47,980 nucleotides of DNA from assembly GCA_021796225.1 (NCBI GenBank), contig JAJYOL010000006.1:1-47980 (forward strand). The letters are read 5' to 3'. Origin of the DNA: Microcaldota archaeon (GTDB lineage Archaea > Micrarchaeota > Micrarchaeia > Micrarchaeales > CABMGC01). Shown here one piece after another: positions 4,831 through 47,826 of this stretch (the first letter of the stretch is position 1; each line of letters begins with the position of its first letter). The notes under the pieces are model-generated. The model did no database searches and was not told the DNA's origin. It worked only from the letters and a program-made list of their open reading frames with translations. The translations under genes and the position numbers were made by a program.

Positions 4831-4848
4831 CGGCCGATTAAATTTCCT

Positions 4849-7643: not shown

Positions 7644-7688
7644 TTTCGACATCAGAGCAAATAATAATACTGCCTGCGTAATACGGGT

Positions 7689-25247: not shown

Positions 25248-25973
25248 CTATTCCTTAATCTCGAGGTATCTCTGGCTTACCATCTTGTCAAGTATCTGCT
25301 CGACTCTGGACGGAACGATGCCGTATGTCTTTGAAAATTCGTTTATGTCTATGGTGTTGTTGTGCACTTCGATCCAGTCGCCTACCATCGCCATGAGCGC
25401 TCCGTCGGAATATTTCTGAAGTGCATTTACCTGCTGTTCTAGAACCTTGTTGTGCTCATTCAATTCCGAAGACTGTACTGTAAGGTTTCTGTTTGCCGCG
25501 CTGAGCTCCAGATTCAGCCTCTTCAATTCCCTGTATTCGGTAAGAAGTGCATCGTATTTGTTGAAAAGGGTGCTGTAACTTTCGGAAAGCCCCTTAAGCA
25601 GATTGTCCACTACCGAATCGATGTATTGGTAGAATTTGGACTGGTCAAGCTTGTAATAATCGGTTACGAGTGAAAGAACGGCTACCAAATCCTTGATTAT
25701 CACTGCTCTTCGCATCCTCTCGCTCGTGTCCGGCGGTATCGAGTATATGAGCTTGACTCCGTCCTTTCCTATTTTGACTATATAGAACATGTACGGCTTT
25801 TTGTTGATGTTCCTGCTTTCTATCCTTGCAATTACGAGCTCTTCCCCTTCTATCTTGCTCGTGTAGAACGGTATCGTGGAGATCTTGCCTTGTATGTCCT
25901 GCAATGTCCCTATTAGTTCCCCTCCGAACTGGAGTTCTTCTATTTTGGGTACCGGGATCTGTTCGTCTGCCAT
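25248..25973 (-). CDS. Cytoplasmic coiled-coil protein with a C-terminal winged-helix-like end
   Basis: The 241-residue protein has an N-terminal globular domain with strands (ISTIPFYTSKI, LVIARIESR, YMFYIVKIGKDGVKLIYS), a helical middle (DLVAVLSLVTDYY), a coiled coil at about 145-190, and a final segment (IDINEFSKTYGIVPSRVEQIL, then MVSQRYLEIKE) that resembles a winged helix. It lacks membrane segments. The ATG at 25973 is preceded by a strong GGAGG site. It is upstream of the 49-residue gene and the 786-residue surface protein, in the same direction and closely spaced. Function unknown; an adaptor or regulator of the membrane system is possible. Confidence 0.7.
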   Translation of the reverse strand: MADEQIPVPKIEELQFGGELIGTLQDIQGKISTIPFYTSKIEGEELVIARIESRNINKKPYMFYIVKIGKDGVKLIYSIPPDTSERMRRAVIIKDLVAVLSLVTDYYKLDQSKFYQYIDSVVDNLLKGLSESYSTLFNKYDALLTEYRELKRLNLELSAANRNLTVQSSELNEHNKVLEQQVNALQKYSDGALMAMVGDWIEVHNNTIDINEFSKTYGIVPSRVEQILDKMVSQRYLEIKE

Positions 25974-26079
25974 TTTATCCTCCAATCTCCTGTCTGCTTA
26001 TAAAGGCATTTTATTATACGTCCGCAAGTAATATGAAGCTACTTATGCCCCTTTCGGACGCAATTTCGTGCCGATAAGC

Positions 26080-26439
26080 CTACGTTTTTTCTGTTTTCTT
26101 GATGTCGAGTGCCGGCATGTAGCTGAAAAGGGCCAGAAGGTAAAAGAACAGAAGGACACCCAGAGTTATCAGAAAGGTTACCACGCTGAGTGCGAGTATG
26201 TTTCCAAATATGAAAAAGAGCGTGCCAAGTGCGACGTAGACGGCTCTTTTGGTGGTGAATTTTTTCCTCTGCTCCCTGTATTTCGGATAGCACGTTCTGC
26301 ATACCACCAGCACGTTGTTTTTCTCGTTTTTGGTTATGTTTTTCTTTATCCATCTCACGGCGCGTATGACATGGTCTTCACGCACCAGTATCCCTGCCTT
26401 CTCCTTTCCGCATATTATGCAAACTTTCTTTCCGGCCAT
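26080..26439 (-). CDS. Zinc-ribbon membrane protein, 119 aa
   Basis: The N-terminal 60 residues carry two CxxC pairs (VCIICGKEK and VCRTCYPKY) that should bind one zinc ion. Two adjacent membrane helices follow (about 66-84 and 86-108), with a short Lys-rich tail. The family is unrecognised. It lies nine bases downstream of the 98-residue gene at 26449 and is probably the last gene of the transcript that begins at 29938. Position suggests a small membrane accessory of the VirB4-like apparatus. Confidence 0.7.
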   Translation of the reverse strand: MAGKKVCIICGKEKAGILVREDHVIRAVRWIKKNITKNEKNNVLVVCRTCYPKYREQRKKFTTKRAVYVALGTLFFIFGNILALSVVTFLITLGVLLFFYLLALFSYMPALDIKKTEKT

Positions 26440-26448
26440 AAACTCATC

Positions 26449-26745
26449 TCAATCTATGCTCAGTTCGGCTATCTTCCCATATGTTTCGTTAATTCGCTGT
26501 TCGTCACGCATGTTGAAAATATCCGTTATGGTGATGTCGTCGACGCCGACTCTTCTGAGTATGTTTATTATGTCGTTGTCACGCACCCCGTATCTGTGAA
26601 GCATATTTACAAATGCTACCGCGTTTACGTGCCTGTGCATCTTGTTGATCGCGTTTGTCATCTCGTCTATGTTCTTGTTGCTCATTTTGAACGAAGTGAG
26701 TATCTTTTCCAGCTTTATCCTGCTTATCACGAACGTGTTTGCCAT
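26449..26745 (-). CDS. Small helical protein resembling the C-terminus of the neighbouring VirB4-like ATPase
   Basis: The 98-residue helical protein is not a named family to me. Its second half (VAFVNMLHRYGVRDNDIIN, then ILRRVGVDDITITDIF) matches the pattern of the last 50 residues of the ATPase next door (VREFVQILASKGVERDAIVA, then LLRGLKIIDIIITRIF). It therefore looks like a free copy of that C-terminal module, perhaps a protein-protein docking domain. Its ATG overlaps the ATPase stop by one base (TGATG), so the two are translationally coupled. Confidence 0.65.
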   Translation of the reverse strand: MANTFVISRIKLEKILTSFKMSNKNIDEMTNAINKMHRHVNAVAFVNMLHRYGVRDNDIINILRRVGVDDITITDIFNMRDEQRINETYGKIAELSID

Positions 26746-28262
26746 CAGATGCCACCCTGTCCGGAATAGGAGAATATCCTGGTTATTATTATATCGATTA
26801 TCTTCAGACCTCTTAGCAGGGCAACTATCGCGTCGCGTTCGACGCCCTTGCTTGCGAGTATCTGGACAAACTCCCTGACGTCTATTATTCTTCCTTTCTT
26901 TTCAAGGCTGTCGAATATCGAAGGTATGATTTCGGAGCTGACTCCTATCTCTATCAGCTTTGAATTAAGCTCTATCCTCTCAAGATGGTAATCCTTCTGT
27001 ATTCCCTTGTCCGCAAGCTCCGCCGGCGTGAGTACCTCTGTTATGCTTACCGCGTAAACGTCGAGCGGTTCTTCCCCGACTATCTTGTCCAAAAGGAACA
27101 CGTCGGGAAACTGCACTGCCGAATGGAATGACATGTCGAATGCCGCCTGGCCGACTCCGAATTTTCCTATCTCGCTGCGCATGAAGTTGGAGAAATTTAG
27201 CGATCCTTGCAGGTAATTCATGAACTTCTCGAATCTTATCCTGAGCATGACCGTGGTGCCTACGTTGGAGAATATCGCTTCATTTATATCCGTCGGATTC
27301 TGCGATGCGACTATCAGGCCGAACTGGTATTTTCTCCCCTCTCTGACTATGGTTATGGCATCGCTCCTGCTGTCGCTTGCCACCTTCCAAGCTTCGTCAA
27401 GCACGACGATGGCCTTGAGGCCTTTGCTGCTGCTCCATCCTTCGGCACGCATTTTTTCCTTCAAGGTCTGCAATATGAACATTGCCGCAAGCGCCCTGAA
27501 TCCTTCATCAGGCAGAGCCGAGAGATCAAGATCGACCAATCCCGATGTGGTGATTTTATCTATGTCTATGGTGGACTTGTTTGCAAAATAATCTTCACCT
27601 TCCCTTGTAAACTGCCTTAATCGGTACAACGCATTCTCGAGCTCCGCCGGGTATGCGTAAGTGCCGTCCTGCAGCTTCTCTTCAAGAAGCAGCGTAACGT
27701 CCTTGAGCGTAGGCGCATCCTTTCCTTTCTCGGGTATCTGGGAAAGCGTGAAGCCCGCATTGACATAAGCCTGTTCTATGGCTTCTGAAGTGAGCCTTCT
27801 CTGTTCAGGATAATCCGACACGTCGGTGAGTATGTCGAGCGAATTCATTATCTGCTTTACCCTGTCTACGGGTTTCATCCCTGAAAGGTCCATTATGTTT
27901 ATGTAGTCTCCGCGCGATAGCGCTATTATCGTGCCTCCGCTCTGCTTGACCCACGCCTTGTATTCTCCGGCCCAGTCTATTATTATCGCATTCGTATTCC
28001 AGATGTAGCTTGCGCGTATCAGGAATGTCTTGACGAAGAAGCTCTTTCCCGAACCCGTTATTCCCACTACCGCGAGGTGCGGGTTCGTAAGCGTGGCAAA
28101 TGTCCATGTAAAAGGTATTCCGAAAATCTTCGTAGTGCCTATGAATACGGAATCCGTAGGATCGTTGAGAAGATACTGGTGCGGAGGCTCCGGAGGCCTG
28201 CTGAGGAATACCCTCTTGGCCAGTTCGTTGCTCATTATTTTTTGAATTCTTACAAGCGACAT
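26745..28262 (-). CDS. VirB4/TraC-type T4SS ATPase
   Basis: This 505-residue P-loop ATPase belongs to the VirB4/TraC/HerA group that powers type IV secretion and conjugation. Walker A is GITGSGKS (67-74), Walker B is IVVLDEAWK (285-293, with the VirB4-type DEAW), and a sensor-like ASQNPTD (319-325) follows, then an Arg-rich TVMLRIRF segment. The usual N-terminal half of VirB4 is missing here; only about 50 residues precede the motor. That half appears to be supplied by the separate proteins encoded just upstream. A roughly 110-residue C-terminal extension (about 397-505) is unusual and has a relative in the next gene. A GGTGTTGAA ribosome-binding site precedes the ATG. Confidence 0.88.
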   Translation of the reverse strand: MSLVRIQKIMSNELAKRVFLSRPPEPPHQYLLNDPTDSVFIGTTKIFGIPFTWTFATLTNPHLAVVGITGSGKSFFVKTFLIRASYIWNTNAIIIDWAGEYKAWVKQSGGTIIALSRGDYINIMDLSGMKPVDRVKQIMNSLDILTDVSDYPEQRRLTSEAIEQAYVNAGFTLSQIPEKGKDAPTLKDVTLLLEEKLQDGTYAYPAELENALYRLRQFTREGEDYFANKSTIDIDKITTSGLVDLDLSALPDEGFRALAAMFILQTLKEKMRAEGWSSSKGLKAIVVLDEAWKVASDSRSDAITIVREGRKYQFGLIVASQNPTDINEAIFSNVGTTVMLRIRFEKFMNYLQGSLNFSNFMRSEIGKFGVGQAAFDMSFHSAVQFPDVFLLDKIVGEEPLDVYAVSITEVLTPAELADKGIQKDYHLERIELNSKLIEIGVSSEIIPSIFDSLEKKGRIIDVREFVQILASKGVERDAIVALLRGLKIIDIIITRIFSYSGQGGI

Positions 28263-28271: not shown

Positions 28272-29096
28272 TTATTTCTGCAGCTGGAATATTTTTCCAA
28301 GCTCCGCTTCTCCGAATACCCTGTAATTAAGCGTATTCAGGTAATACAGCTCCCTGCCGACTATCCTCGAAATGCTGAGATCGAACGAATTGAAAAGCGT
28401 TTGCAGTTGGCTTAACTGACCAGACAGGTTGTCTATCGCTTCCTTCTCGCTTATTCCCACCGCCGTGGATTCTATATACATTATCGTGTTGAGCGGCCTC
28501 TCCCCTGCGGATATTCTTTCCATCTTTGCCTGCAGTATTCCGAGTTTGCGCTGCAGTTCTTCCACAACCATCTGATTCGGATTGGAGCCGTTTACTTCTC
28601 TCGACAACTGGAATTCGAGAAAACCCCTCTGGCCGTCAAGTTCGTCCCTGTATTTTTGTATGCTTTCCGGAACTGCAACGACGTTTATCTTGAACGGGAA
28701 GTCGGCATTCATGACTATCCTTTCCCATCTATCCGTTGCTCCTGCAAGCACCGTCTGGTCATCCTGTGTCTGTTCTGACGTGAATACGTATCCGTATATG
28801 TTGCCCGTGAGATACCCCGTTGCGTAATATATCCCGTTGACCGATTTTATTATGACGTCCTGTGTTTTCGGTATCTTGCTTCTTCCCGAAGGGATCGTCA
28901 CCAGTCCGAGAAGATTCGTGAACATCGGGAATACGATGAAATCCGCGTAGTTTATCGCTATGTTTACCATTACCGCGACTGCCGCAAGCACGACTACCAC
29001 AAGAGCCAAAGGCCCGTAGCTTCCTGCCGTTATTATGAGTACCAGAAGAACCATCGAAGTCATTCCGACATACATGAGTCCTTCTTCATCCATCAT
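28272..29096 (-). CDS. PrgI/VirB4-N-terminal-like membrane protein (copy 1)
   Basis: The 274-residue protein has two N-terminal membrane helices (about 12-28 and 30-60) and a soluble domain. The opening of that domain (KTQDVIIKSVNGIYYATGYL) resembles the N-terminal region of VirB4/TraC proteins. The latter part is helical and charged. In Gram-positive T4SS, a two-helix PrgI protein precedes VirB4; here PrgI-like helices and a VirB4-N-like domain appear to be joined in one protein and separated from the ATPase. It overlaps the preceding gene by four bases (ATGA) and lies nine bases upstream of the ATPase gene. The relationship is judged from architecture and is not certain. Confidence 0.65.
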   Translation of the reverse strand: MMDEEGLMYVGMTSMVLLVLIITAGSYGPLALVVVVLAAVAVMVNIAINYADFIVFPMFTNLLGLVTIPSGRSKIPKTQDVIIKSVNGIYYATGYLTGNIYGYVFTSEQTQDDQTVLAGATDRWERIVMNADFPFKINVVAVPESIQKYRDELDGQRGFLEFQLSREVNGSNPNQMVVEELQRKLGILQAKMERISAGERPLNTIMYIESTAVGISEKEAIDNLSGQLSQLQTLFNSFDLSISRIVGRELYYLNTLNYRVFGEAELGKIFQLQK

Positions 29097-29938
29097 TCGC
29101 CACCTCCGCTCCTGCTCATTATGTTCTGACTGAGATTTGCAACCGGTATGTTCTTTTCCGGCTCTATGAATTCGAGTATCTCGTTTCCCGAAGCCAGCGA
29201 AGCGTTTATCCCGTAAGTCGCGCTTATGCCGCTTGCAAGCTCTTCTCCCTTCATCAACGCCATGTTTATCGCTTCTTCGTCATTGCCCCCTTCCGCGCTT
29301 ATCGCCGCGAACGAAGCAAGCGAATGGCCTCTCGCCCTGTTTACATTATCAAGCATGTTTTTCCACATTGTCAGTTCTCCGCGCAGCCTGTTCGATTCCG
29401 GGGACCCCGTATCTTTCCCCGTACCCTCCCTGTCCACCATCATATTGTATCTGTCCTGCACGTCGCTGAGCCTCGCCCTTATCTTTTCAACGTATTCGTC
29501 CTTGTTCAGCACGTAAAGCTGCGTCGTTATCCTGAACGGCTCTTTCATCAATGCGAGCATCTTGCTGAATGATACCGCAAAGTCGAATTTTTCCTGGTCT
29601 TCCATTTCGGTGGCGGAGCTATACAGCGGCATTTTGATGAATGCGGTTGCATAAACCCTGTCCCCTTCACGCCTGACTATCGCGTTTCCCGAAGGCGCGA
29701 GTATGTAAGGCTCTCCGCCTTCTATCGTCATCGTGTGGTTTTTTATCTTCGTGAATGGCTCGTACAAATAGGTGAAGTATCTTGTAGATATTGCGAATAC
29801 GTCAAGAAGTATTGCGACTATGGCCAGCGGGACTTTAACGTAAAAATATTGTGAAGGAACCGCTGCGGTAATCAGGACTATGGCGAATGCTGCAGATAGC
29901 AGTATTACGAAGAGCATGAGCCTGAATTCTAGCGCCAT
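29093..29938 (-). CDS. PrgI/VirB4-N-terminal-like membrane protein (copy 2)
   Basis: The 281-residue protein has the same plan as its neighbour. Two membrane helices lie near residues 5-28 and 36-55. They are followed by a soluble domain with APSGNAIVRREGDRVYATAF, a strand pattern like that of copy 1, and then a helical, coiled-coil-like stretch (VEKIRARLSDVQDRYNMMVD). The two are probably paralogues that pair. The ATG at 29938 is preferred over a TTG nine codons upstream, which would sit almost on the promoter. It is the first gene of the transcript that includes the ATPase. Confidence 0.65.
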   Translation of the reverse strand: MALEFRLMLFVILLSAAFAIVLITAAVPSQYFYVKVPLAIVAILLDVFAISTRYFTYLYEPFTKIKNHTMTIEGGEPYILAPSGNAIVRREGDRVYATAFIKMPLYSSATEMEDQEKFDFAVSFSKMLALMKEPFRITTQLYVLNKDEYVEKIRARLSDVQDRYNMMVDREGTGKDTGSPESNRLRGELTMWKNMLDNVNRARGHSLASFAAISAEGGNDEEAINMALMKGEELASGISATYGINASLASGNEILEFIEPEKNIPVANLSQNIMSRSGGGE

Positions 29939-29970
29939 AGAGATCCAACGATACAATAAAGGCAAGCATA

Positions 29971-30004: not shown

Positions 30005-31168
30005 CTATATCGCGCGCAGTCTTCCCGACGTTCTTGCCATGCCTCCGAGTATTTCAGCTATCTGCGTTATGAATGCGTAAGTCATGGCGCTTATGAGTGC
30101 GGGGAAAAACAATACCGAAAGCCAATAATCACCGACACTGTTCTGCGCGTTTTTAATGCTCATCGTAATAGGGTTTGTTGGGGAAATCATACTGCTTAAT
30201 CCCGGACAGCTTTCAGACTGTCTGGTTGTGCCTCCGGAATCTTGTATCGGTACTACGCTGCATCCTGAATTACTTTGCAACGAAGATGCGATACTGCTGA
30301 GCTGCTGCACCGTTCCTTGAGAAGTGAAATAATAAGAAAAACTGAACATTACCGGCATGAAGAAGTAGAACCCTATGGCTATTGCCATCATCATGCCTCC
30401 AAGATGACGTGTAGGTATCAGGGACCGGAATATTATTCCGGGTATCAAAAACACGGGTATTGCCGCATACATGAAGAACACGATCGTGTAAAATTCTACA
30501 TGGAGCGCCATGAACCCCCCCATCATCATATCGAAAAAGGCAAAAAGTTCCCAAAAAGTGCTGTATTCGAGCATAAATGGCACAAGCGACGTATCCCCTG
30601 GAATATCGTAAGACACTCCACATGCCGAGTCTACAATTGGTATACATATAAACAACTGTGCCGAAGGTAAAACCATTTCAATAAGGCCTATCTGATACAT
30701 TTCCACAAACGTCACTGAACTGACGTTTATGATATTTCCAATATATCCTAAAGATATGCTATACGGATCATAGGCGCCTACGAAAAGTCCTGGTATCAAT
30801 CCGAACATCGTAGCCGCGACGAAGGAAAACAATATTACTATGAGCGCCGTTGCGGTAGCTTCGTAGAATTCTCCAATACCAAAGATTCTCAGCCTGTCGT
30901 TTCCCAAAGCTATCCCGAACATTATTATCGCTGCGGCTATGGAGAACGATATGAGCATTGCGGCGTATGCCACAGGCTCCCAGACACCCCATATACGTAT
31001 CGCTGCCGCATTTACATTGTTGCAATACCACGGTGCCGTTATGGAAACCACGCTGCTTGCTCCTCCTGTGTTAACATTGCTGCAGTATTGCGTGAATATG
31101 TTGCTCGATTGGGCTCCCGCTATTCCTACAAATGCGAAAAGCAGCAGTAAAACGGCGATTCTTTTCAT
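30005..31168 (-). CDS. VirB6/TrbL-like polytopic membrane protein, paralogue 6
   Basis: The 387-residue protein starts with a cleavable-looking signal peptide (KRIAVLLLLFAFVGIAGAQ) and has about seven further membrane helices. The shared paralogue signature is present as IIFRSLIPTRHLGGMMMAIA, as is the first motif RLRIFGIGEFYEATATALIV. An outside loop carries several Cys (CIPIVDSACG), which could form disulphides. It is last in the six-gene array, four bases after the previous stop. By architecture it fits the VirB6/TrbL channel component of T4SS, though sequence similarity to bacterial members is too faint for me to confirm by eye. Confidence 0.75.
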   Translation of the reverse strand: MKRIAVLLLLFAFVGIAGAQSSNIFTQYCSNVNTGGASSVVSITAPWYCNNVNAAAIRIWGVWEPVAYAAMLISFSIAAAIIMFGIALGNDRLRIFGIGEFYEATATALIVILFSFVAATMFGLIPGLFVGAYDPYSISLGYIGNIINVSSVTFVEMYQIGLIEMVLPSAQLFICIPIVDSACGVSYDIPGDTSLVPFMLEYSTFWELFAFFDMMMGGFMALHVEFYTIVFFMYAAIPVFLIPGIIFRSLIPTRHLGGMMMAIAIGFYFFMPVMFSFSYYFTSQGTVQQLSSIASSLQSNSGCSVVPIQDSGGTTRQSESCPGLSSMISPTNPITMSIKNAQNSVGDYWLSVLFFPALISAMTYAFITQIAEILGGMARTSGRLRAI

Positions 31169-31174
31169 CAAAGG

Positions 31175-32329
31175 TCACATTATGCGCGTAAGCAGCGATA
31201 TGAAGTCCATTCTTTCTCCTACGGATTTTGAAAAGTCCACAATGAACGTATCCACGATTGTTATGTTTATAAGCGGTATAAAAGTCATTCCCATACCGAC
31301 AAGACCGCCGTATATGAGAAACTGCTGAAGTAACGTATACATGGGCAAGGCTCCATAACTGCCTGCTACTCCATTCGGTAACAGAAATGCGGTTGCCAAC
31401 TGGCCCGTAGCCATCTGTAAAAATATTTCTCCTACTGTTAGAACAAATCCTCCGAGAAAACTGGCCGTACACCCAGCACCCAAGACCCCTGACGGTATGC
31501 CCATGTTACACATCAGGTTATGCCCTGCAACTCCCAATGCGTAATCAAGAAATCCGTAGCTTATGCTTGTCATAAGCGGATAAACAAAACCGATTCCAAT
31601 TGCAAAAGCAATCATTGCCCCTCCGAATGTACGCGTAACGCCGAAAGACCTCGCCACCAATCCCACTACCATCAAGGTTCCGAATATCAGTCCGGAAACG
31701 TCTATCAACAGATACTGAACCTGCACAAGCACGTAAAATATGTACATAGAATTAAGCATTGGCACTATGTAGTGGAATACAGGTTCTATCGGAAGAAGGG
31801 ATATGGATATCGAAGTATTTATCGTGCTTAACTTCGGAGGATATGTCAGAGTTATCGACGGTACCATGGAAACCAGTGTTCCTATCCAATATGTTTCGTA
31901 TGTCAAGCTCGTTATATCGTTATTGTAACTCCAAAGGTCGCACACCGAAAGGAAAAAGAGGTTGTTGTATCCCACGCCTGTATTGCCTGTGGGGTTAGTG
32001 ATTGCCGATGCACAGCTTGTTGGCATAAGTCCCGCATTTGTATACGCACTAAGTACGGGCATATTGATCAGCAAGCCTATGAATGCCAGAAATATCAGTA
32101 TCAGGACTATGGAGGAAAGTTCATCGTAGAGTTTGGCCTTTACCCATACCTTAAGGTCATTTCTTCCTATGAGCGGGCTTATTGCGTATATTATTCCGAG
32201 TATCGACATTATTGTCAATGTTATTATTATCGCTATCGGAAACCATATCACATACGGCGAAGTTATTGTGGAGCACAAGCCAGTACATTTTGTCGTTCCC
32301 TGCAATATCAACGGTATAAAATTCATCAT
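31175..32329 (-). CDS. VirB6/TrbL-like polytopic membrane protein, paralogue 5
   Basis: The 384-residue protein has about seven membrane helices and begins with a short outside segment holding two Cys (KCTGLC), without a clear signal peptide. It carries both array motifs: NDLKVWVKAKLYDELSSIVL after the first helix, and LVARSFGVTRTFGGAMIAFA in the core. The start overlaps the previous gene by four bases (ATGA) and follows an AAGGTGAT ribosome-binding site; ATG at 32326 is equally possible. It probably forms part of a hetero-oligomeric membrane complex with its five paralogues (inference). Confidence 0.75.
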   Translation of the reverse strand: MMNFIPLILQGTTKCTGLCSTITSPYVIWFPIAIIITLTIMSILGIIYAISPLIGRNDLKVWVKAKLYDELSSIVLILIFLAFIGLLINMPVLSAYTNAGLMPTSCASAITNPTGNTGVGYNNLFFLSVCDLWSYNNDITSLTYETYWIGTLVSMVPSITLTYPPKLSTINTSISISLLPIEPVFHYIVPMLNSMYIFYVLVQVQYLLIDVSGLIFGTLMVVGLVARSFGVTRTFGGAMIAFAIGIGFVYPLMTSISYGFLDYALGVAGHNLMCNMGIPSGVLGAGCTASFLGGFVLTVGEIFLQMATGQLATAFLLPNGVAGSYGALPMYTLLQQFLIYGGLVGMGMTFIPLINITIVDTFIVDFSKSVGERMDFISLLTRIM

Positions 32330-33504
32330 ATCACCTTCTGGAGCAGCTTGCCGCTCTGCAATGACGGGGCTCCGAGTATGTCACCAAGAAATTCAAGCAT
32401 ATCATACGCTATTATGAAGGAAATTATGAGGCCAGCCATTTGAAATACTATGTATGTTATTGTTGAAGCGTATTGCATTACGTTTTGGAACATTACATCT
32501 CCGAATGCGAATCCTACAAAGGAAGATACAAACGTTTCCAGTACCGAGAATGTATCACCAAGGATATCAAGCTTTACGTTACTACTGCCTGTTTCGTGGC
32601 ACAAAGTCGGTGCCGATTTGCAAATCGCGCTCGAGCTGGAGGCCGAACTAAAAGTATATGAAGAAAACGCGTAGAGGAATGCCGGGAAGATCACATAAAA
32701 CGATATGAACAATGCGATAAGCGCTCCACCGGCAGCCCTTGTCCATGGAAATGCACGCAATGCTATTCCTGCATAAAGAAATATCGGGAACAGGAAATAT
32801 ATTATAAAAAGCGTAAATATCAGCAGCATTCCCATTACTATTATGCTGAAAGTTATATCCATTTCAGACCAAACAGCCGTTCTAAGCGTTTGTGCGCCGT
32901 ATAATGGACCGAATTTAATCCCAAAATCCAACGGCATTACATTGATTTTGAAATCTATTATCATATTGTATATGAAAAGGTCATAGAATACGTCAACATA
33001 TGTGTATATCCCGTTCATTACTATGTTGTTCTGATAATTGGTGCACAAGTTCGTATAAAGTTGTCTCGCACTTACGAAACCCAAATGCGATGAAGTTGCT
33101 CCCGTCGTACTTGCGCTTGCAAGGTTTGCAAGAAACACTGTAGACCCGTTGAATACTCCTATCCCTCCGATTATCAGAACTACTATTGCCACATTGGCTA
33201 TGCTTTCAAGATATTCTGTTTTTACGAATGTTACGAGCTTTGTTATTCCAAATGCCGTGCCTATGGTATAGACGATACCCAATAACGACAGCACGAGAAG
33301 GCTTATTATCAGTGAAATGCCGAGAAGTTCCGTAGGTACCGTTCTTGATGCTATTCCTGCTGTGATAAGCGGGGCAGAAACAGCATTCTGCGCTCCGTTG
33401 CCGAATAAGGTATTGCAATCTAGTATCTGTATCAATTGCGCATGAACTGGAATGGATGTGATTAACAGAAGAAAGGGAATCATAAGCAATGCAATCCTAT
33501 TCAA
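32326..33504 (-). CDS. VirB6/TrbL-like polytopic membrane protein, paralogue 4
   Basis: The 392-residue protein has a signal peptide (IALLMIPFLLLITSIPVHAQ) and about seven membrane helices. The paralogue motifs are TKLVTFVKTEYLESIANVAI and IALRAFPWTRAAGGALIALF, the clearest example in the array. A start at TTG (33504) is chosen because AGGTGATTGA lies just upstream and gives the signal peptide its positive residue; the next ATG (33483) would leave a signal without charge. It lies eight bases after its upstream neighbour. Confidence 0.75.
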   Translation of the reverse strand: MNRIALLMIPFLLLITSIPVHAQLIQILDCNTLFGNGAQNAVSAPLITAGIASRTVPTELLGISLIISLLVLSLLGIVYTIGTAFGITKLVTFVKTEYLESIANVAIVVLIIGGIGVFNGSTVFLANLASASTTGATSSHLGFVSARQLYTNLCTNYQNNIVMNGIYTYVDVFYDLFIYNMIIDFKINVMPLDFGIKFGPLYGAQTLRTAVWSEMDITFSIIVMGMLLIFTLFIIYFLFPIFLYAGIALRAFPWTRAAGGALIALFISFYVIFPAFLYAFSSYTFSSASSSSAICKSAPTLCHETGSSNVKLDILGDTFSVLETFVSSFVGFAFGDVMFQNVMQYASTITYIVFQMAGLIISFIIAYDMLEFLGDILGAPSLQSGKLLQKVI

Positions 33505-33512
33505 TCAATCAC

Positions 33513-35024
33513 CTAAACGAACCTGCCTAACCCTATTATATTGGTGTCTCCTCCGAGAAGGCTTGACAAGCCTACCACGGCAGAGAGCGATACCAGTACA
33601 TTGAGTATATTCATTATGTATCCCGTTACCCCCATTATTCCGTATGCATTGAACAGTGCAAGAGTTGCTTTGGCCATCGTTTTGGGCAGGAAGCAATCGT
33701 ATCCCGGCGGAGTCATAATGCTCGTTCCGGTAAAGCCTGTGAATATTCCTCCTGCACTTGAAACGGTATCTAAAATACCGAATGCCGCTCCGGCTAGCGG
33801 AACAAGGTAATAACTTGAAAAACCAAATTCGACACCGAGAATACTGGAGTAGCTTCTAACGCCGTTCCCCGGATCCCCTGCGGGATAACAGTCGTAATAA
33901 TTCAGTATTTCCGCAACATTCGGGAATTTGAAAAAGTTCAACTGATATGTTACTGCCTGCGATATTTCCGAGTCCTGCAGTGGCAATTCCTTTATCTGCA
34001 TTGAAGGTATGGAATTTGTGCCTATTATCTGCACGCATCCCTGCTGATTGCCCGGTTCCAATCCTTTCGGACCGTATTGGCACAGTACATTACTATTACC
34101 AAGCGATGTGTATTCAAGCAAAACCAGCATCGGTGTTATTATCAATGCAACAAGGACAAATGCTATGATGAGCCCTCCAATCCTTCTCGTGAAAAAGAAC
34201 GTCCTAAGTATTATTCCCGCAGCGAGCATGTACGGCCACCCGTACATGATCAGAAGTATGACAACCATTTCGACAAAATACATGTAAAAGAGGGCAGTAG
34301 CCATTATTTCTATGGGTGGATTTGTAACCCTGTTGAATATGTATCCGACGTAAGGCATGTATGTTGCCGTAATCTGTACCGCATCATATGTGCCTTGAAA
34401 CGGTATGGCGCAAGTCACTGGCATGCAGAATGTCGTTACGGAGTGAAAAGTTCTCAACCATTGCAGAAATCCTTCAACGTAATAAAGTGCATTCAGGTTG
34501 TACAGCGTCTGGTTTGTCATGTTTGCATCTATAACATACGATGCCGCCAATGCGTAGTCCAAATTCGCCGTCATACTGTTTCGCTTGTTAGCAGTCGCTA
34601 TTATCTGATTGCATATCTCACTGGTCGGTCCGGGATCTTTGCTGTTGACGAATGCTATTGCTGAATCAGCCAGATGCGGAGAATTGCATACTGAAGATAT
34701 GCTGCTCGGAGATATCTGCATCGTCTTTGTCGATGTAAGCGTCGTGCCGAATATGGTGAGAATACCTATTATTAATACGACAAGCACCACTGTTCCAATT
34801 GCCTGATAAAATTCTGCAAGAGCTTGCCCTTTGACCTTTGCATTATTCAGTGCGACTCCTAACATGTAATAAGCTGAGGTAAGCATCACGCTGAGCAACA
34901 CTGCTGCGATTATGATGGGGATCCAGTTTTGGAATTGTGAATAGCCTGTTTCGAGACCGGCTGCACCTACCGAAACCGCGAACATTGCGGCAAAAATTAT
35001 GAAAACAGCTGTCTTGTTTACCAT
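33513..35024 (-). CDS. VirB6/TrbL-like polytopic membrane protein, paralogue 3 (longest)
   Basis: At 503 residues this is the largest member. A signal-like helix (KTAVFIIFAAMFAVSVGAAG) is followed by the motif AKVKGQALAEFYQAIGTVVL, an extended outside loop of about 140 residues with six or more Cys, the core motif IILRTFFFTRRIGGLIIAFV, and a second large outside loop rich in Gly/Cys/Tyr. The enlarged loops set it apart from its paralogues and suggest surface exposure. The ATG overlaps the previous stop (TGATG). Confidence 0.75.
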   Translation of the reverse strand: MVNKTAVFIIFAAMFAVSVGAAGLETGYSQFQNWIPIIIAAVLLSVMLTSAYYMLGVALNNAKVKGQALAEFYQAIGTVVLVVLIIGILTIFGTTLTSTKTMQISPSSISSVCNSPHLADSAIAFVNSKDPGPTSEICNQIIATANKRNSMTANLDYALAASYVIDANMTNQTLYNLNALYYVEGFLQWLRTFHSVTTFCMPVTCAIPFQGTYDAVQITATYMPYVGYIFNRVTNPPIEIMATALFYMYFVEMVVILLIMYGWPYMLAAGIILRTFFFTRRIGGLIIAFVLVALIITPMLVLLEYTSLGNSNVLCQYGPKGLEPGNQQGCVQIIGTNSIPSMQIKELPLQDSEISQAVTYQLNFFKFPNVAEILNYYDCYPAGDPGNGVRSYSSILGVEFGFSSYYLVPLAGAAFGILDTVSSAGGIFTGFTGTSIMTPPGYDCFLPKTMAKATLALFNAYGIMGVTGYIMNILNVLVSLSAVVGLSSLLGGDTNIIGLGRFV

Positions 35025-36259
35025 CACATGTTACCCCAGAAAGGTCCTACTCCTATCGCACCCGAAATGGATCCCAATCCTCGAGCCAAACCTTGTGCAA
35101 AACCTATTGTTATTGCAATGTCAAGTGCTATAAGTACGAGGCTTGAAAACATATATTCGGAAATCTCTATTCCATAACCGTTTACCTGCGCCGGTATTTC
35201 GGCTATGGCACCCATTAAATTTATAAACTCCTGTCCGAGACCTCCATTTCCGCTTATTGCACCCCCAAAGAACAGCCCATCAATACTTACGGTACTTCCA
35301 AAAACGCCGAGCTTCAACGGTGTATTGCTATCGAGAATACTGCTGAATGGCAAGTTTATCAGCATATCATTCTGTGCGTATGCGTAATACGGGTTGCAGC
35401 TTCCAGTATACTGCTGCGTTATATGTCCCAAGTCCATCACGTTATTGCTGAAATTCAAACCCACGTTATTCGTGCAAAACATCCAGTTTATGGCATAATT
35501 ATTGAATACCAGTGTTAGCGGAAGGATGAAGTAAAACGCTATCGCTATGGCAAGGAATGCGTCAGCAGCTTCACGAAGTTTCGGCCCTCCAAACGGTATC
35601 ATGCGTATGACGAGCGCTAATGGAACCATCATGGTTATGGCAAAGGATTGCGCAAGAACCAGCAACAACCACATGATGAAAAGCACCCCGTACGATACCA
35701 TCATCATAACCGTATACGTGCTGGTTGAAACGCTCGCATAACCGTAAAAGATTCCAAGTATGTTTGCATTTAAAATCAATCCCGATCCATGTTGTACTAT
35801 CTTTTCCGTTATTCCTATGATAGCTTCGGCCAGGTTTCCCGCAATTAGGTAATTTATGCTTGTAACATACATATCTCCGAATATCTGCCCGCTGGTAGTA
35901 AACAACAGGTTGTTCATGTACAATTGTGCGAATTGAAACGGATCTTGGTAGGTGCCTGCCGTAAGTCCCTGGGTCATCGAATTGCCCATCTGGCATCCGA
36001 GTCCAGCAAAAATCACCAATATCAATATTATAAACAAAGCTATGATACCCTGTACTATCTCCGCTTTGACTATACCTCTGAGTTTTTCCCTTCTTGTTGT
36101 GGAAAGGAAACTGCTAAGTGCATATATCAATCCTCCAACTGAGATAGCCAAAAGCACAATGATTGTGGATATCGCAATCCAATCTCCCTGGTTCAACGCA
36201 CCGAATGTACACGTTTCGGATGCCGCACCGGCAACTGTGTTAAGCAGTATTAAATTCAT
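35024..36259 (-). CDS. VirB6/TrbL-like polytopic membrane protein, paralogue 2
   Basis: This protein of about 411 residues has roughly seven membrane helices. The first motif is REKLRGIVKAEIVQGIIALF. The core motif is the most divergent of the six (LVIRMIPFGGPKLREAADAF), keeping the Arg and Pro but with the GG pair moved. Outside loops hold a few Cys (MFCTNN, SCNPYY). The start is either ATG at 36259 or TTG at 36271, both close to the end of the preceding gene, so translation is probably coupled. Confidence 0.72.
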   Translation of the reverse strand: MNLILLNTVAGAASETCTFGALNQGDWIAISTIIVLLAISVGGLIYALSSFLSTTRREKLRGIVKAEIVQGIIALFIILILVIFAGLGCQMGNSMTQGLTAGTYQDPFQFAQLYMNNLLFTTSGQIFGDMYVTSINYLIAGNLAEAIIGITEKIVQHGSGLILNANILGIFYGYASVSTSTYTVMMMVSYGVLFIMWLLLVLAQSFAITMMVPLALVIRMIPFGGPKLREAADAFLAIAIAFYFILPLTLVFNNYAINWMFCTNNVGLNFSNNVMDLGHITQQYTGSCNPYYAYAQNDMLINLPFSSILDSNTPLKLGVFGSTVSIDGLFFGGAISGNGGLGQEFINLMGAIAEIPAQVNGYGIEISEYMFSSLVLIALDIAITIGFAQGLARGLGSISGAIGVGPFWGNM

Positions 36260-36263
36260 TTCA

Positions 36264-37514
36264 TCACGCAAGTTTCAGTTTGCCGCCCAAATTCAACCTT
36301 ATTGTTCCTCCAAGAGATTTGGCTATGCTGTCCGTCAACGGATATATTATCATCAAGTCAAGAACAAACAACAAAAATTGCACTATCAAATAGAATGCAT
36401 AATGTATTACATCGTTTACGAATGGGAATATTCCTCCCAACATCGCTTCCAACCCATAATTTATCGAAGCCGTGTTATCAAGCATTGCCGTGACGGAAGA
36501 TACTAATTGGGAGTTAGCTATGACGTATATTGTTCCGGTGAATGGATTAGTTACTATTATTGGGCTGGGCTGAGGAAGGACATTGGCTGCCCATGCCGAC
36601 ACTGGCAAATTCAACAACACGAGCGTTGCGGGAAATATGAGCGCCATCGATATACCCATCGCAATAAGCGTGCCTCCTACCCCTCTTACTACAGGAAATG
36701 CGCGGAGCACGAGTCCCATCGGTATCAGGACTGTAAGTCCGACAGAAACGAGTAATGGCAATCCGGGTATCATTATTCCATCAAGTGCTGTGACAGGGAA
36801 AAGGACATACTGTGTCAAATCGTATATCATAGATTCAAAGTGCTGTATGATTATGTTACCAGATTCGAGCATGAAGTTTTGGTATATATTCATGATAAAC
36901 CCGGAAAGTATGGCACTACCGCCATCGGGAGGTATCAACGGCAATGGGATCGGCACCCAAAGCCCTATTACCATATTTTGGAAAACGCCTATACCTATGC
37001 TTTCCGCACCTATGAACTCCCATGCAGGCTGTACTGCATTTCCAACACTGCAAAAATACGATTCCGATGCGGTTATCAAAGCGCCTATGTTAGGTATGTA
37101 ACTGTTTCCAGGGCTGTGGACCCCGGAAACGATAAGGGCTATGCTGCTAACAAGCGTTATGATAGTATAAATGGCGGCTACGAGAAGTGCGGATTTCGCT
37201 ATCTCGTAATATTCGCCGCTAAGCCAGCTCTTGAGCTTCGTTCCTGGCAGCACCGCGTTTATCATGTATCCTACCGCAACGACATCTATTGCAAGCGACA
37301 GGGCAATAATCGAAAGCGCTATTGCGGTCGACTCGCTGGGCAGCGGTATACTTCCTCCAGTCGCGGTATTCGACAGCCCGGAAATCCCTCCCGTCTGGCA
37401 TGCCTGCGTATAAGTAATGTAATGCGTCTGGCTTGCACTAGCGGTCTGCGCGGCAGCTATGTGTGCAGCAAAAACCGTAAAAATCAGGATCAGGATTCCT
37501 GAGGTCAAGCGCAT
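36264..37514 (-). CDS. VirB6/TrbL-like polytopic membrane protein, paralogue 1
   Basis: The first gene of the array encodes 416 residues, with a signal peptide (MRLTSGILILIFTVFAAHIA then AAQT) and about seven membrane helices. Motifs: GTKLKSWLSGEYYEIAKSAL and LVLRAFPVVRGVGGTLIAMG. The C-terminus ends in a basic, glycine-rich segment that should face the cytoplasm. A TATA box about 29 bases upstream of the ATG marks the promoter for the whole array, which continues through six genes with gaps of at most eight bases or short overlaps. Confidence 0.77.
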   Translation of the reverse strand: MRLTSGILILIFTVFAAHIAAAQTASASQTHYITYTQACQTGGISGLSNTATGGSIPLPSESTAIALSIIALSLAIDVVAVGYMINAVLPGTKLKSWLSGEYYEIAKSALLVAAIYTIITLVSSIALIVSGVHSPGNSYIPNIGALITASESYFCSVGNAVQPAWEFIGAESIGIGVFQNMVIGLWVPIPLPLIPPDGGSAILSGFIMNIYQNFMLESGNIIIQHFESMIYDLTQYVLFPVTALDGIMIPGLPLLVSVGLTVLIPMGLVLRAFPVVRGVGGTLIAMGISMALIFPATLVLLNLPVSAWAANVLPQPSPIIVTNPFTGTIYVIANSQLVSSVTAMLDNTASINYGLEAMLGGIFPFVNDVIHYAFYLIVQFLLFVLDLMIIYPLTDSIAKSLGGTIRLNLGGKLKLA

Positions 37515-37563: not shown

Positions 37564-38322
37564 TCAGTGCGACAAAAGCGGGAACTTTCTCATGTACGCT
37601 TCCGTCTGCAGTATGACAAAATACGGCAGTATGACTATCGAAATGAGGAAAAGCATGACGTATCCCGATACGACGGGCCCCCAAGGTATAGCTATTATTA
37701 TCGCGTCAAGAACCGATATTGTAACTGCAAAGAGCAGTACCCATATCGCGTAGTATTGCGGCGAGCTCCTTATGAGCTTCACGCTGTCCGTTATAGCCCT
37801 TCCCACCCGCTTGTTGTCTATCACTACCGCACTCGGCGCATAGAACATGACCGTTCCTATCAGAAGCCCGAATATCGCGGTTATCAGCACCGCGGCAGAC
37901 GGGAAGAGGGCGTAGCTTGCAAGATTTACCGCAAGAAGGAGAAAGCCGTATATCATGAGTATTACGAATACCTTTCCAACGTGTTTTTCTATTTCCATCA
38001 GGGCTCTCTTTCCTATTCCCGAATGCGTCTTTCTGGATTTTACTATCAGGCTTATCGCGACATACGCGAAGCTCAGGAAAAGCAGCGTGAATATGTACGA
38101 TACAACTATGACTGCAATGCTGAAAACGCTTATGCCTGCCATCCCCGCCCCGCTGAGGAATATCCCTCCAAGCGTTACGTACGTGGACAGATGTGCGGCT
38201 ATCGGTATTATGAATGCTATTGCGAACGGTATCGAAAAGAGCCAAACGAGTTTAAGGTTCTCCGCATACGTTCTGCATGCTTCCTGCAGCAATCCAGGCA
38301 TGTTTTCCCTCAGCCTATACAT
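37564..38322 (-). CDS. Six-helix membrane protein of unknown function
   Basis: The 252-residue protein has about six hydrophobic helices and cytoplasmic basic segments (VKSRKTHSGIGKRALMEIEK and DNKRVGRAITDSVKLIRSSP). Its general look resembles the glycerophosphoryl-diester/DUF4013-type integral membrane proteins of archaea, but I cannot name a family. It lies 50 bases upstream of the VirB6-like array on the same strand, separated by that array's promoter. The ATG at 38322 is preferred over a TTG three codons earlier. Confidence 0.65.
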   Translation of the reverse strand: MYRLRENMPGLLQEACRTYAENLKLVWLFSIPFAIAFIIPIAAHLSTYVTLGGIFLSGAGMAGISVFSIAVIVVSYIFTLLFLSFAYVAISLIVKSRKTHSGIGKRALMEIEKHVGKVFVILMIYGFLLLAVNLASYALFPSAAVLITAIFGLLIGTVMFYAPSAVVIDNKRVGRAITDSVKLIRSSPQYYAIWVLLFAVTISVLDAIIIAIPWGPVVSGYVMLFLISIVILPYFVILQTEAYMRKFPLLSH

Positions 38323-38372
38323 GCCAATCAAGTATTAAAAACATATCGCGGTTGCATCATTCTGCAAATCCG

Positions 38373-40274
38373 TCATTTTACATACGCGCTTTCATTCACC
38401 ACGTCGTCGGAATAATAGACGTATTTCGTATCGTAAATCATCGCATGAAGCCTAGTTGCCCTGTCTGTGACATGTTGCCCTTCTATCACCGCATGTACGT
38501 CGTAAATACCATCTTTTCCAACAAGATTTATCCTGTTGTAATTGACATAACATGTATAACTATCGTTGCATTCCGGATGCGTGCCGATCAGGCTGTTGTT
38601 GATTCCGTATATACCATACACCATCGTATAATTGCTATATCCCTGCAGGTAAAGGTATACCGTTCCGTTTGTCATGTTTGAATAATGCAGTTGTGCGTCG
38701 TATATCGTATTATTGCCGATATAGCTTATACTCTGATTTGTAATACGCACGTCAAAGTTCGAAAGATACTGCATGTGATACAAATATATTCCAATGACAA
38801 ATACCATTACGATTATCAAAAGCGCCAGATAAAACACACCGATATTTCTATGCAGGTATCTCGTAATCAATCCTCTGTCCTGTTTTTCCTTCTTTACCGC
38901 AGCCAAAGCAAATGCGCCGAAGAACAGGAAGAACGTATAATATTTACCCAAAGTGTGAAACAGCACCATCATAGGCATGAGAGATAGAAATGGCACAAGA
39001 ACCTTCCTATCGAAGAATAACAGAAGAGTTATTGACAATATCGTAAACATTGAAAACGCAAAAACAGCCGCATCTATCGGGACATGATATCCAAACAGCA
39101 TCAAAGAACCAGTTGGCGGTATTCCAAATGGAAAAAGATTTCCTATCGGTGCAAATACCGCATCAAAATATGCTCTGGGGTTTGCAATTATGAAAACACT
39201 GTTTATAAGAAGGAACACTGCAACGGCTCCTGCAGCTTTTTTCATGCCCTTTAACAGTCCCTCTCTGTTTAATGCATATACCAACATCAGTATTATCGGT
39301 ATCCATGCTTCTTCCTGTAACGATGCGGCAATTCCTAATGGTATAAAGGAATATTGACTATCAAGTTTCACATATGATATGACAAGAAACAGCAGTACAA
39401 GGTAGTCTACTGGACTTGTAACCGTACTAAGCATAAATACAAACATGGCAATAAATCCGAAATCAAATCCGCGCAACTTTTTTTCATTGAGCAGTATTGC
39501 AATGCCACTTACGAGCAAAAAGATAAATATCGAAACTTCTATCTTGACGCCGATGTGCGATATATTGTATATCGTAGGCAACGAGAAAAGATAGAATGGG
39601 ACAGCAACTATAAAGTAAAGGGCAGGGTAGTTGGTTTTGCCGATAACTTCGTTATTCATCGTCAGCGTTCCGCCCGCCGTGGAAAAATTAGAATAGATGT
39701 ACTTTGCAAACGATTCCGCATAGGGGTTTTGCTGCATCAAAATGCTTTTAACGTCTAAGGCGCTTATAATTGTCTCGTCTCCTACCTGAAACGATTTCAC
39801 AATATATACGAAAAAAATAATACTGATTAAGAAAGCAATGGCGAGAAGAAAAAGTCCTAATCTGATCTGTTTTTTTGCAAAAATAAAATATGCTCCGAAG
39901 GCAGAGCATGCAAACGTGGGGATTAGGAACAAGAGATAAATTCCGAATTCACGTGCATATCCCAAACCCTTAATTATCGTATAAACTGATGCAATTTTAG
40001 CATGAAATGAAAATAATATCACAAACGCTATCGTGAGGATTATCGGAAGGATTAATCTCACATTTTTTCCATCAATGCCTGTTAACTGTTTTCCTGATGC
40101 TATCAATCCATAGATTATGAAATATATGAATCCAGCCGCGATATACAATACAGATAATGCGTTATACGCTAAAGAACTCGAATATGTTTCATTACTAACA
40201 ATCAAAAAATACGCAAACGATAAAAGCGCCATATAAAAAGCAGCCTTTTCATATCTGCTGCCGCTTGCATCCAT
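38373..40274 (-). CDS. GT-C-type membrane glycosyltransferase candidate
   Basis: The 633-residue protein has about twelve membrane helices and a C-terminal outside domain of about 130 residues with several NxS/T sequons and a Cys pair (CNDSYTC). The first long outside loop contains VGDETIISALDVKSILMQQN, placing an acidic pair (Asp-Glu) where GT-C lipid-sugar transferases keep their catalytic acid. A second loop carries QEEAW. This layout suggests a polyprenyl-phosphate-sugar-dependent transferase that glycosylates surface proteins or lipids. Its place between the pilin-like genes and the VirB6-like array suggests modification of that apparatus, which is inference. A TATA box lies at 40297-40305. 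Confidence 0.6.
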   Translation of the reverse strand: MDASGSRYEKAAFYMALLSFAYFLIVSNETYSSSLAYNALSVLYIAAGFIYFIIYGLIASGKQLTGIDGKNVRLILPIILTIAFVILFSFHAKIASVYTIIKGLGYAREFGIYLLFLIPTFACSAFGAYFIFAKKQIRLGLFLLAIAFLISIIFFVYIVKSFQVGDETIISALDVKSILMQQNPYAESFAKYIYSNFSTAGGTLTMNNEVIGKTNYPALYFIVAVPFYLFSLPTIYNISHIGVKIEVSIFIFLLVSGIAILLNEKKLRGFDFGFIAMFVFMLSTVTSPVDYLVLLFLVISYVKLDSQYSFIPLGIAASLQEEAWIPIILMLVYALNREGLLKGMKKAAGAVAVFLLINSVFIIANPRAYFDAVFAPIGNLFPFGIPPTGSLMLFGYHVPIDAAVFAFSMFTILSITLLLFFDRKVLVPFLSLMPMMVLFHTLGKYYTFFLFFGAFALAAVKKEKQDRGLITRYLHRNIGVFYLALLIIVMVFVIGIYLYHMQYLSNFDVRITNQSISYIGNNTIYDAQLHYSNMTNGTVYLYLQGYSNYTMVYGIYGINNSLIGTHPECNDSYTCYVNYNRINLVGKDGIYDVHAVIEGQHVTDRATRLHAMIYDTKYVYYSDDVVNESAYVK

Positions 40275-44346: not shown

Positions 44347-44457
44347 ATGGGTTGTAGCGGAAAGCATACGGCCCGCTAGATATTGTGGTCATTCTGCGCG
44401 CCGCATGCCATGTACTATTCCGGCATGCCGCAGGAACGGGGCTTTTGGTGGTTGTTC
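44347..44457 (+). other. Structured GC-rich leader with a 10-codon upstream ORF
   Basis: This segment is far richer in G+C than its surroundings. It holds an upstream frame ATG to TAG (44347-44379, peptide MGCSGKHTAR) in phase with the big gene, and a hairpin AGCGG/CCGCT inside that frame. It also holds a long hairpin at 44394-44433, where CTGCG pairs with CGCAG and GCATGCC with GGCATGC around an internal bulge. It could be a regulatory leader or a small RNA. I see no cobalamin-riboswitch box or tRNA fold. GGTGG near its end is the ribosome-binding site for 44458. Confidence 0.45.
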
Positions 44458-47400: not shown

Positions 47401-47826
47401 ATTGCAACAACCGTAACGAAACGTTTTGAGGATTTTCACATTGAAAACGAAGAACAGCCGCGGAAGCAACCGGCGGTTGCACTACGATCAAAACACATTT
47501 CCGATCCCCATACGGATGCCGTTGCCATAGATAATGCAAGCAACCTGAAAGATTCTCGGGCTTCGAATCCAACCGTTGTCGTAAGTAATGCGGCGGTAGA
47601 TTCTCATCGCAGGGAAAGGCCGGCATATCGGCACGTTCTGCCGTTCCAATTCAATGAAAAAAGAAAAGGAGACGTAATCGCGTTAACAAGCGTTGCGTCA
47701 AACACGCACGCAATATTGTTTGTCATTGCATGTTTTGGAATTGCATCCCTGTTGTCTGTGCAATTTTTCTCGGCACATCACTTCTCTGCGGCTCTCTTGC
47801 TGACTTTCTTTATAAAAATAATGTAA
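44458..47826 (+). CDS. Large protein with a B12-binding domain and a membrane-anchored Ser/Thr-rich tail
   Basis: The 1122-residue protein has four parts. Residues 1-300 are helical, with about five repeats of 35-40 residues (for example NPLVAAELLISMSE, NIASALLYEIR, GAEAASELFYAIR, NVRLAGELFVAIG, GAEVAVDYVSALW). Residues 301-422 are a B12-binding domain of the methylmalonyl-CoA mutase C-terminal type, with EGHDRGAK (candidate cobalt-ligand His315; the usual first Asp is Glu), GISLPGDQY and FGGGIVSKG. Residues 430-1085 are low-complexity, rich in Ser, Thr, Asn and Gln. The last 35 residues hold a membrane helix (HAILFVIACFGIASLLSVQF). No mutase or methyltransferase domain is present. The start at 44458 follows GGTGG; ATGs at 44410 and 44425 are possible. 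The end overlaps the convergent DedA gene by 49 bases. Confidence 0.8.
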   Translation: MGVRYKISGKGSSVYEGNDPVKRFEARLDKFFSNPAGDRIAANLDKNKTHGISRESRIMTDASRQFVNEHSADILSKYPNSSTSDVSSQELGKTIKKLNPLVAAELLISMSEESFVHLSNGEFLSKLSAMDHNIASALLYEIRLTEKSSAVTKIGGNPFALADPKLLNETSLRFFERLGAEAASELFYAIRKTDNAGALLNESVMNESIVKLARENVRLAGELFVAIGTTNMPERLTSEKFISHLRSMGAEVAVDYVSALWLMPRNASRLVSDSMARKIIDRKIDVWTDVVRNPSSEVRRSEPLVLIANTESEGHDRGAKLAFQYFMQNGFNVMYAGKATTPQAITSMAEKYKAGAIGISLPGDQYGNVAKELVSKMKAVGMGNVPIFGGGIVSKGTIEHLSRNGIRFLTDKDSITRIISSVKLDGINPKKLSYGNFLALSSTYFSPTTQEYAYVSGDHAAITLPYLFNGAVSYSASASRNTDLRFQGMMFALKSGLARMNSQNGFRLTMTSSISENFVKKSFSMHNTALHNALQSSLRIAMAANQHTHSAKVLPISSQSISKTNFSRINARMPNKSIVLQSKASDKAFVLHFPVKFILSNARISGTAFSSQIPIPISAKTTPTIVTNRDIPANKVQVHSTLQKTFFSQHNHTLLQTSSRNVLISQIFTSPVQMTRPQFQEMVMQMLPNVSGNASSTNITSEFKIKPMQAAPHKIKYSNALKPSFQTLTEKTSTPLDRDHSPCLVLYSEKHPPAEITPPGQIRLQYQILGITLTGKTTVAIPAALRYAYQAAVQQFSNTAQNIEITPQAQAFYSAYGLGVQPASQAAALSLASQQPTLARLQQSPQSVNLQAPLLANTIPTSGSLSQPYQLQSASTLTNTNAVNQTSNGQAAFFQRFSYDYPYTQTGINKPRFRFLQTKITIEIPTLSFSKTNSPVPSTLHHHVPITVKEKMGRNRYSVSDTAISTAKLQKFFRPIGLPHAIATTVTKRFEDFHIENEEQPRKQPAVALRSKHISDPHTDAVAIDNASNLKDSRASNPTVVVSNAAVDSHRRERPAYRHVLPFQFNEKRKGDVIALTSVASNTHAILFVIACFGIASLLSVQFFSAHHFSAALLLTFFIKIM

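Follow-up and report, generated by a model that had tools for sequence, protein, structure and literature searches.

Six tandem VirB6-like paralogs as probable channel subunits of a type IV secretion-like system in Micrarchaeota

A stretch of 47,980 nucleotides of archaeal DNA (contig JAJYOL010000006.1 of assembly GCA_021796225.1, hereafter the window) carries six consecutive open reading frames (ORFs) on its minus strand, which fill positions 30005-37514 and encode polytopic membrane proteins, designated here as M1 to M6. Why should one operon hold six such genes, and what could their products form together? The window is part of contig C9 in a 0.79-Mb genome (15 contigs, 83% complete) of the order Micrarchaeales, phylum Micrarchaeota. 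M1-M6 are probably the channel subunits, as a hetero-oligomer of six fixed subunits, of a chromosomal and probably pilus-bearing machine similar to type IV secretion systems (T4SS).

A sequence-only reading of the window had described six consecutive genes sharing one plan, with about seven helices, a common core motif, and a longer third copy. The six ORFs were confirmed, with products of 384-504 amino acids (aa). Single-sequence searches in phmmer and blastp linked M6 with M3 (E 7e-10), M4 with M5 (E 2e-8), and M4 with M1 (E 2e-7). When profiles of the orthologs of each protein were aligned in hhalign, all 15 pairs matched, with E values of 2e-9 to 2e-21, and the motif arginine fell in equivalent columns in every pair; M6 and M4 gave E 3.9e-22 in profile comparison. 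The control profiles of M0 and B8a, both encoded by the same operon, scored no better than E 0.028 against any M protein, and M0 was thus ruled out as a seventh paralog. No Pfam or NCBIfam family covers M1-M6. Judged by these alignments, the six proteins are true paralogs. The claim of a shared motif stands for the arginine column, which is equivalent in all six, but not for the whole pattern, as M2 has the variant RMIPFGGPKLREAAD with four extra residues and without GG after the second arginine, its first arginine being equivalent to that of the other copies. The helix count is better given as six to seven hydrophobic segments per protein, the N-terminal one included. M3 is indeed the longest copy, with 504 aa against 384-416 aa for the others, and it is also the longest by median (441 aa) in arrays from other orders.

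Whether each copy is an old subunit of its own was addressed in 41 loci of Micrarchaeales, 40 of them fetched and one being the window. Genes were picked with the guidance of hidden Markov models (HMMs), because longest-first picking of ORFs hid some genes behind antisense ORFs. M1-M6 occur in exactly this order in 32 of the 41 loci, and at 156 of the 160 junctions in these ordered loci the genes overlap or lie no more than 30 bp apart. Among the remaining loci, L007, L012, L021, L030, and L037 stop at a contig or region edge, L018 combines an edge cut with an insertion between M6 and B8a, and L043 (genome G048) has its six M genes elsewhere on the same contig. A tree of 78 rows needed six changes of label for the six groups, the minimum being five and the mean of shuffled labels 51. 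A single branch sets the whole group apart from the rest for M2, M3, M5, and M6 (support 95, 82, 99, and 88, respectively), but not for M1 and M4 once a second order (f15) is included. Separate conservation of the copies was the test proposed in the sequence-only reading; gene order and tree bear it out, and on this phylogenetic evidence each M protein is an old, separate subunit. Four records with the same locus as Micrarchaeota (L052, L095, L103, and L112) are titled Marsarchaeota, and these titles are probably wrong.

Outside the family of the window, the M family profile found matches in all 40 genomes of other families that were searched. Forty array regions of other orders were chosen among the matches listed, and 36 of them have exactly six tandem M genes. 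L174, one of the 36, has at least one broken gene; its six places were checked. Of the other regions, L178 was cut by the region edge and has six M genes when fetched whole (L207), L182 and L183 are contig-end fragments of four and two M genes from one genome, and L185 is a locus with a single M gene. Further arrays L211, L212, L214, and L215 have six M genes each, and L210 and L213 are single-M loci. Complete multi-gene arrays of other orders thus hold six genes in 41 of 41 cases. Because the array regions had been picked, every M match was also counted in nine genomes; with three short N-terminal-only pieces set aside, 14 clusters of six, five of one, and none of any other size were found. 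Six M genes stand together with B8a, B8b, and B4 in four f15 loci, and three f24 genomes that were searched have a single M. No complete set was seen with a member lost or gained.

The order of the genes is kept together with their number. When the 36 arrays of other orders were scored with HMMs from Micrarchaeales, the identity assignment of positions was the pooled best of the 720 permutations; its rank in single arrays had a median of 5.5 and was at worst 221. The identity was also the pooled best in reverse scoring with HMMs built from other orders only, and it ranked first in 14 of the 23 complete Micrarchaeales sets scored in this way and no lower than fourth in any of them. Position profiles of other orders matched best the same index of Micrarchaeales in five of six cases, position 4 being a near tie. 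Individual M proteins are often misassigned by the position HMMs, and the window's own M2 and M4 were assigned to other positions. From these sequence comparisons, the set of six most likely had a single, early origin and was then copied as a block. In L180, L188, L192, L194, and L197, all from other orders, one type of six-gene array has one or two very long ORFs (about 950-1855 aa) behind it. Most of these ORFs begin like a signal peptide or a lipobox, and they are possible surface or adhesion parts.

The genome of the window also has a second, minimal system with only one M gene. It lies on contig C8 (L217, G000:C8:106000-118000, locus 4417-7684), where genes for a pilin, one M protein of 343 aa, a 240-aa protein, and a VirB4-like ATPase of 373 aa adjoin. 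This layout recurs in L210, L219, and L220. The two systems look like the same kind of machine, and as they occur in one genome, the one-copy and six-copy versions can be compared inside one cell. If one M presumably makes a pore alone, as these single-M systems of the same and other genomes suggest, the six M proteins could likewise be alternative pores, each forming its own homo-oligomeric VirB6-like ring and swapped according to cargo or partner. The outer loops differ strongly between positions, with position 3 reaching 1409 aa in other orders, which agrees with such a use. Alternative pores should vary in number, but complete multi-gene clusters always have six genes in one order and tightly packed, and the neighbouring machine has one ATPase; this explanation is considered quite unlikely.

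The likeness to VirB6 comes from structure and gene context. The AlphaFold2 model of M6 (predicted local distance difference test score, pLDDT, 81.4) was compared with 986 chains, and the top three were VirB6 of plasmid R388 with Z scores of 9.9, 9.9, and 9.8, which are below the value of about 13 under which, by the caution of the structural-comparison tool, helical matches can reflect a common arrangement. Between 231 and 238 residues were aligned of 260-272, with a root-mean-square deviation of 6.3-6.4 A. A profile of the pilins matched the N-termini of M2 (E 1.1e-6) and M4 (E 7e-4) and the family profile (E 7e-5), against E 0.009-0.14 for the other four M profiles and 0.2 or worse for the controls M0, B8a, and B8b; among the six, the N-terminal hairpin of the M2 ortholog profile is the most clearly pilin-like. 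A pilin-like N-terminus of a channel protein is reported for CedA and, more weakly, for VirB6 (PMC9905601). The VirB6-type character ascribed to these proteins in the sequence-only reading is partly supported, by the likeness of the M6 model to VirB6 and by the T4SS-like gene context.

Several results, besides the low Z score, weigh against M1-M6 being VirB6-type channel subunits acting as a set of six. In Foldseek alone, VirB6 was not among the best 50 rows for the M6 model. Pfam TrbL (PF04610) matched none of 34 M members at E up to 1, and in four genomes it gave one weak match, away from the array, and none in the genome of the window. The M proteins gave E 0.54 against the single R388 VirB6 sequence and E 0.12 and 0.41 against a thin VirB6 profile of seven rows, and a sequence search of PDB with M and B8b profiles returned nothing credible and no VirB6 sequence link. 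Given their early origin and copying as one unit, the sixes do not count as independent events. Two Micrarchaeales loci, L031 and L032 (genomes G030 and G014), have no six-gene array and only one M match per genome, located in a single-M system; genome G044 also has no such array, its two M matches lying in one place on a contig that stops just past B8a. Finally, the six-gene array does not adjoin B4 in most other orders. This last point and the missing VirB6 sequence match are what would be expected if the M proteins formed an unrelated multi-subunit membrane complex, such as a transporter or envelope machine, merely encoded beside T4SS-like genes. In the single-M systems, however, the M gene stands immediately between pilin and VirB4-type genes, VirB6 heads the structural list for M6, and the N-terminus of the family profile resembles pilins, so that an unrelated complex is very unlikely.

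The number of subunits in the ring is a further point to be weighed. VirB6 of R388 is reported as a pentamer, proposed to recruit VirB2, in a system with sixfold VirB3 and with VirB4 as a hexamer of dimers (PMC9259494). Six genes therefore need not give a six-membered ring, which also counts against a hetero-hexamer. Five M proteins might form a VirB6-type pentamer as in R388, the sixth, perhaps M2 or the long M3, being accessory; the five VirB6 copies of Rickettsia (PMC2653234) also fit this, as does M2 with its deviant motif and the best pilin match. The core motif columns are nevertheless common to all six M proteins and every complete array has every position, and five plus one is held to be unlikely. 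Six M seats would fit the symmetry of the ATPase rather than a pentamer, and this is the boldest prediction drawn from the analysis.

The operon is read on the minus strand and its order from 5' to 3' is two VirB2-like pilins, the 633-aa protein, M0, M1-M6, B8a, B8b, B4, and the 119-aa, 245-aa, and 786-aa proteins (Table 1). Both pilin-like proteins matched a pilin HMM built from other Micrarchaeota orders. The AlphaFold2 model of B8b had R388 VirB4 in all of its 11 best Foldseek rows (E 2.8e-3 to 0.076), and in VIA it was placed on TrwK residues 221-385 with Z 11.5 over 155 residues at 2.9 A; no sequence match was found between this domain and the single R388 VirB4 sequence. As B8b falls on the VirB4 N-terminal domain (NTD) and B8a is homologous to B8b, the VirB4 NTD appears here as two separate membrane-anchored proteins. 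B4 matched AAA_10 (51.5 bits) and DUF87 (59.2 bits) in Pfam, which together with P-loop_TraG were over the cut-off, and CedD (E 3.6e-19), CedB (E 1.5e-17), and TraC (E 8.5e-16) in NCBIfam, each below the equivalog cut-off. By its sequence, B4 is the ATPase part of a VirB4-class protein. A B8-type protein was found in 255 of 301 genomes of the phylum and in 88 of the 96 better ones. Among the best 80 named relatives of B4 is one from Ca. Micrarchaeum sp. A_DKE (L113), a co-cultured species whose chromosome is complete.

Table 1. Predicted genes of the operon with M1-M6, listed from 5' to 3' (TM, transmembrane)
Feature	Position	Strand	Evidence or remark
VirB2/TrbC-like pilin, 129 aa	40944..41333	-	Pfam TrbC E 1.1e-4 (below cut-off); pilin HMM E 8e-20
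VirB2/TrbC-like pilin, 139 aa	40438..40857	-	Pfam TrbC E 0.0071 (below cut-off); pilin HMM E 6e-18
633-aa polytopic membrane protein	38373..40274	-	many Micrarchaeales loci have an ORF of similar length (~620-700 aa) upstream of M0/M1
M0, 255-aa polytopic protein, not an M paralog	37564..38331	-	kept upstream of M1
M1, 416 aa, VirB6-like, position 1	36264..37514	-	profiles, HMM scoring, tree, gene order
M2, 415 aa, VirB6-like, position 2, variant motif	35024..36271	-	profiles, HMM scoring, tree, gene order
M3, 504 aa, VirB6-like, position 3, longest	33513..35027	-	profiles, HMM scoring, tree, gene order
M4, 392 aa, VirB6-like, position 4	32326..33504	-	profiles, tree, gene order
M5, 384 aa, VirB6-like, position 5	31175..32329	-	profiles, HMM scoring, tree, gene order
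M6, 388 aa, VirB6-like, position 6	30005..31171	-	AlphaFold2 model, profiles, HMM scoring, gene order
B8a, N-terminal TM region and VirB4-NTD-like domain homologous to B8b	29093..29965	-	hhalign to B8b profile E 7e-13; order conserved
B8b, TM region and VirB4 N-terminal-domain fold	28272..29096	-	AlphaFold2 pLDDT 82.0, Foldseek, VIA
B4, 505 aa, VirB4/HerA/CedB/CedD-class ATPase domain without own NTD	26745..28262	-	AAA_10, DUF87 over cut-off
119-aa cysteine-rich (zinc-ribbon-like) protein, hydrophobic C-terminal half	26080..26439	-	small ORF with two TM segments after B4 in most other-order loci
245-aa coiled-coil protein, helix-turn-helix-like end	25248..25985	-	ORF of ~240-260 aa recurs downstream of B4
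786-aa protein, two TM segments, large middle region (probably ectodomain)	22720..25080	-	ORF of ~780-820 aa downstream in most Micrarchaeales loci

The 633-aa protein gave nothing in a Pfam search at E 0.01. The 119-aa protein had been considered as a pilin candidate and was dropped as a cysteine-rich protein with a hydrophobic hairpin. Seven loci of other orders (L130, L131, L132, L151, L153, L154, and L161) have at least one VirB2-like pilin gene at or near B8b-B4 and no adjoining M gene. In one assembly there are two near-equal B4 loci (G032:C16:87763-89250 and G032:C23:3011-4501), both 72% to the window, which reflect a strain mixture or a duplication. On the plus strand of the window, an ORF of 1147 aa with a B12-binding domain lies at 44383-47826.

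Conjugative elements typically carry a VirB4-class ATPase and pilins, and the locus might be a remnant of an integrative and conjugative element or plasmid in the chromosome. Strong B4 orthologs are, on the contrary, present in 56 of 60 relatives, and the flanks are conserved, including an antisense ORF matching in length the topoisomerase VI B of the window. PF03432, the only relaxase family searched, was found in none of four genomes; the coupling protein PF02534 gave two weak partial matches in four genomes, both away from the operon; and no relative of the system was found on the viral contigs scanned. A mobile-element origin was rejected on these grounds, and a conjugative remnant is regarded as extremely improbable.

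Most known systems have a single VirB6-type protein. Several copies in one system are not without precedent. The statement in the sequence-only reading that bacterial T4SS use one VirB6-type protein does not hold, as five VirB6 genes are reported in Rickettsia (PMC2653234) and four in tandem in Anaplasma (PMC7648143). These arrays of Rickettsiales (rvhB6/virB6) resemble M1-M6 in that their copies have diverged, carry extended flanking parts, and occur in cells that depend on a host; they differ in having four or five copies, in an alphaproteobacterial setting with VirB8-VirB11 and VirD4, while the arrays described here are archaeal, consist of six genes or one, and have no VirB6 sequence match. 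In Saccharolobus, two VirB6-like paralogs, CedA and CedE, are each required for DNA import and are proposed to form a hetero-oligomer (PMC11868833). The Ced system (CedA, CedE, CedA1, CedB, and CedD) is likewise reported as an archaeal chromosomal T4SS-like set with VirB6-like CedA, the pilin CedA1, and VirB4-like ATPases (PMC11868833). B4 matches the CedD and CedB profiles, in each case below the equivalog cut-off. Ced differs in being a system of Sulfolobales with two VirB6 paralogs, against six fixed positions across Micrarchaeota. The Trw T4SS of R388 shares the VirB4 N-terminal fold and probably the VirB6-like fold and VirB2-like pilins, but it is reported with one VirB6 gene (pentamer) and one VirB4 polypeptide, whereas here there are six M genes and a VirB4 NTD split into two proteins. 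In an episymbiotic group of Patescibacteria, a VirB4/VirB6-type T4SS is reported from most genomes, with virB6 essential for growth in one strain; this system is bacterial, and a sixfold array is not mentioned in the available part of that paper (PMC12102498). For a Micrarchaeota relative, the accessible text mentions type IV pili along with possible conjugative islands, but not this system (PMC5498576), and PMC12892359 and PMC8975820 make no mention of secretion, VirB, or pili. In the literature searched, no paper joined Micrarchaeota and VirB6, and a phylum-wide fixed six, always six or one and in conserved order, was described nowhere. Multiple VirB6 copies in Rickettsiales and two in Saccharolobus were known already; the fixed phylum-wide set of six appears to be new.

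With M1-M6 as channel subunits, the system looks like a T4SS-like inner-membrane machine for the transfer of DNA or protein and could work as follows. B4 would form the ATPase ring, and B8a and B8b, as the VirB4 NTD on a membrane anchor, would dock it at the membrane. M1-M6 would assemble into a single hetero-oligomeric ring, probably with one of each, and the VirB2-like pilins would be levered through or onto this ring, while the variable outer loops of the M proteins would face the partner cell. One repeated VirB6/CedA-like subunit would in this way have been replaced by six diverged ones that each occupy a conserved seat of their own. It is tentatively proposed that a VirB6-type channel changed a single time, close to the base of Micrarchaeota, from a one-subunit ring to a six-seat hetero-hexamer, which since then was kept and copied only as a whole, the single-M system in the same genomes being the homomeric counterpart.

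The system described here is a phylum-wide candidate for the machine by which ultra-small archaea exchange material with hosts on which they depend. That it is fixed in a phylum whose members mostly depend on hosts points to a use at contact with the host archaeon, and it is present in the complete chromosome of the co-cultured Ca. Micrarchaeum sp. A_DKE. Rickettsiales, which also depend on hosts, have a parallel expansion of VirB6 genes. Having a one-copy and a six-copy version within one genome, the system of Micrarchaeota would be a clean case of evolution from homo- to hetero-oligomer, with the sharp prediction of one ring of six different subunits.

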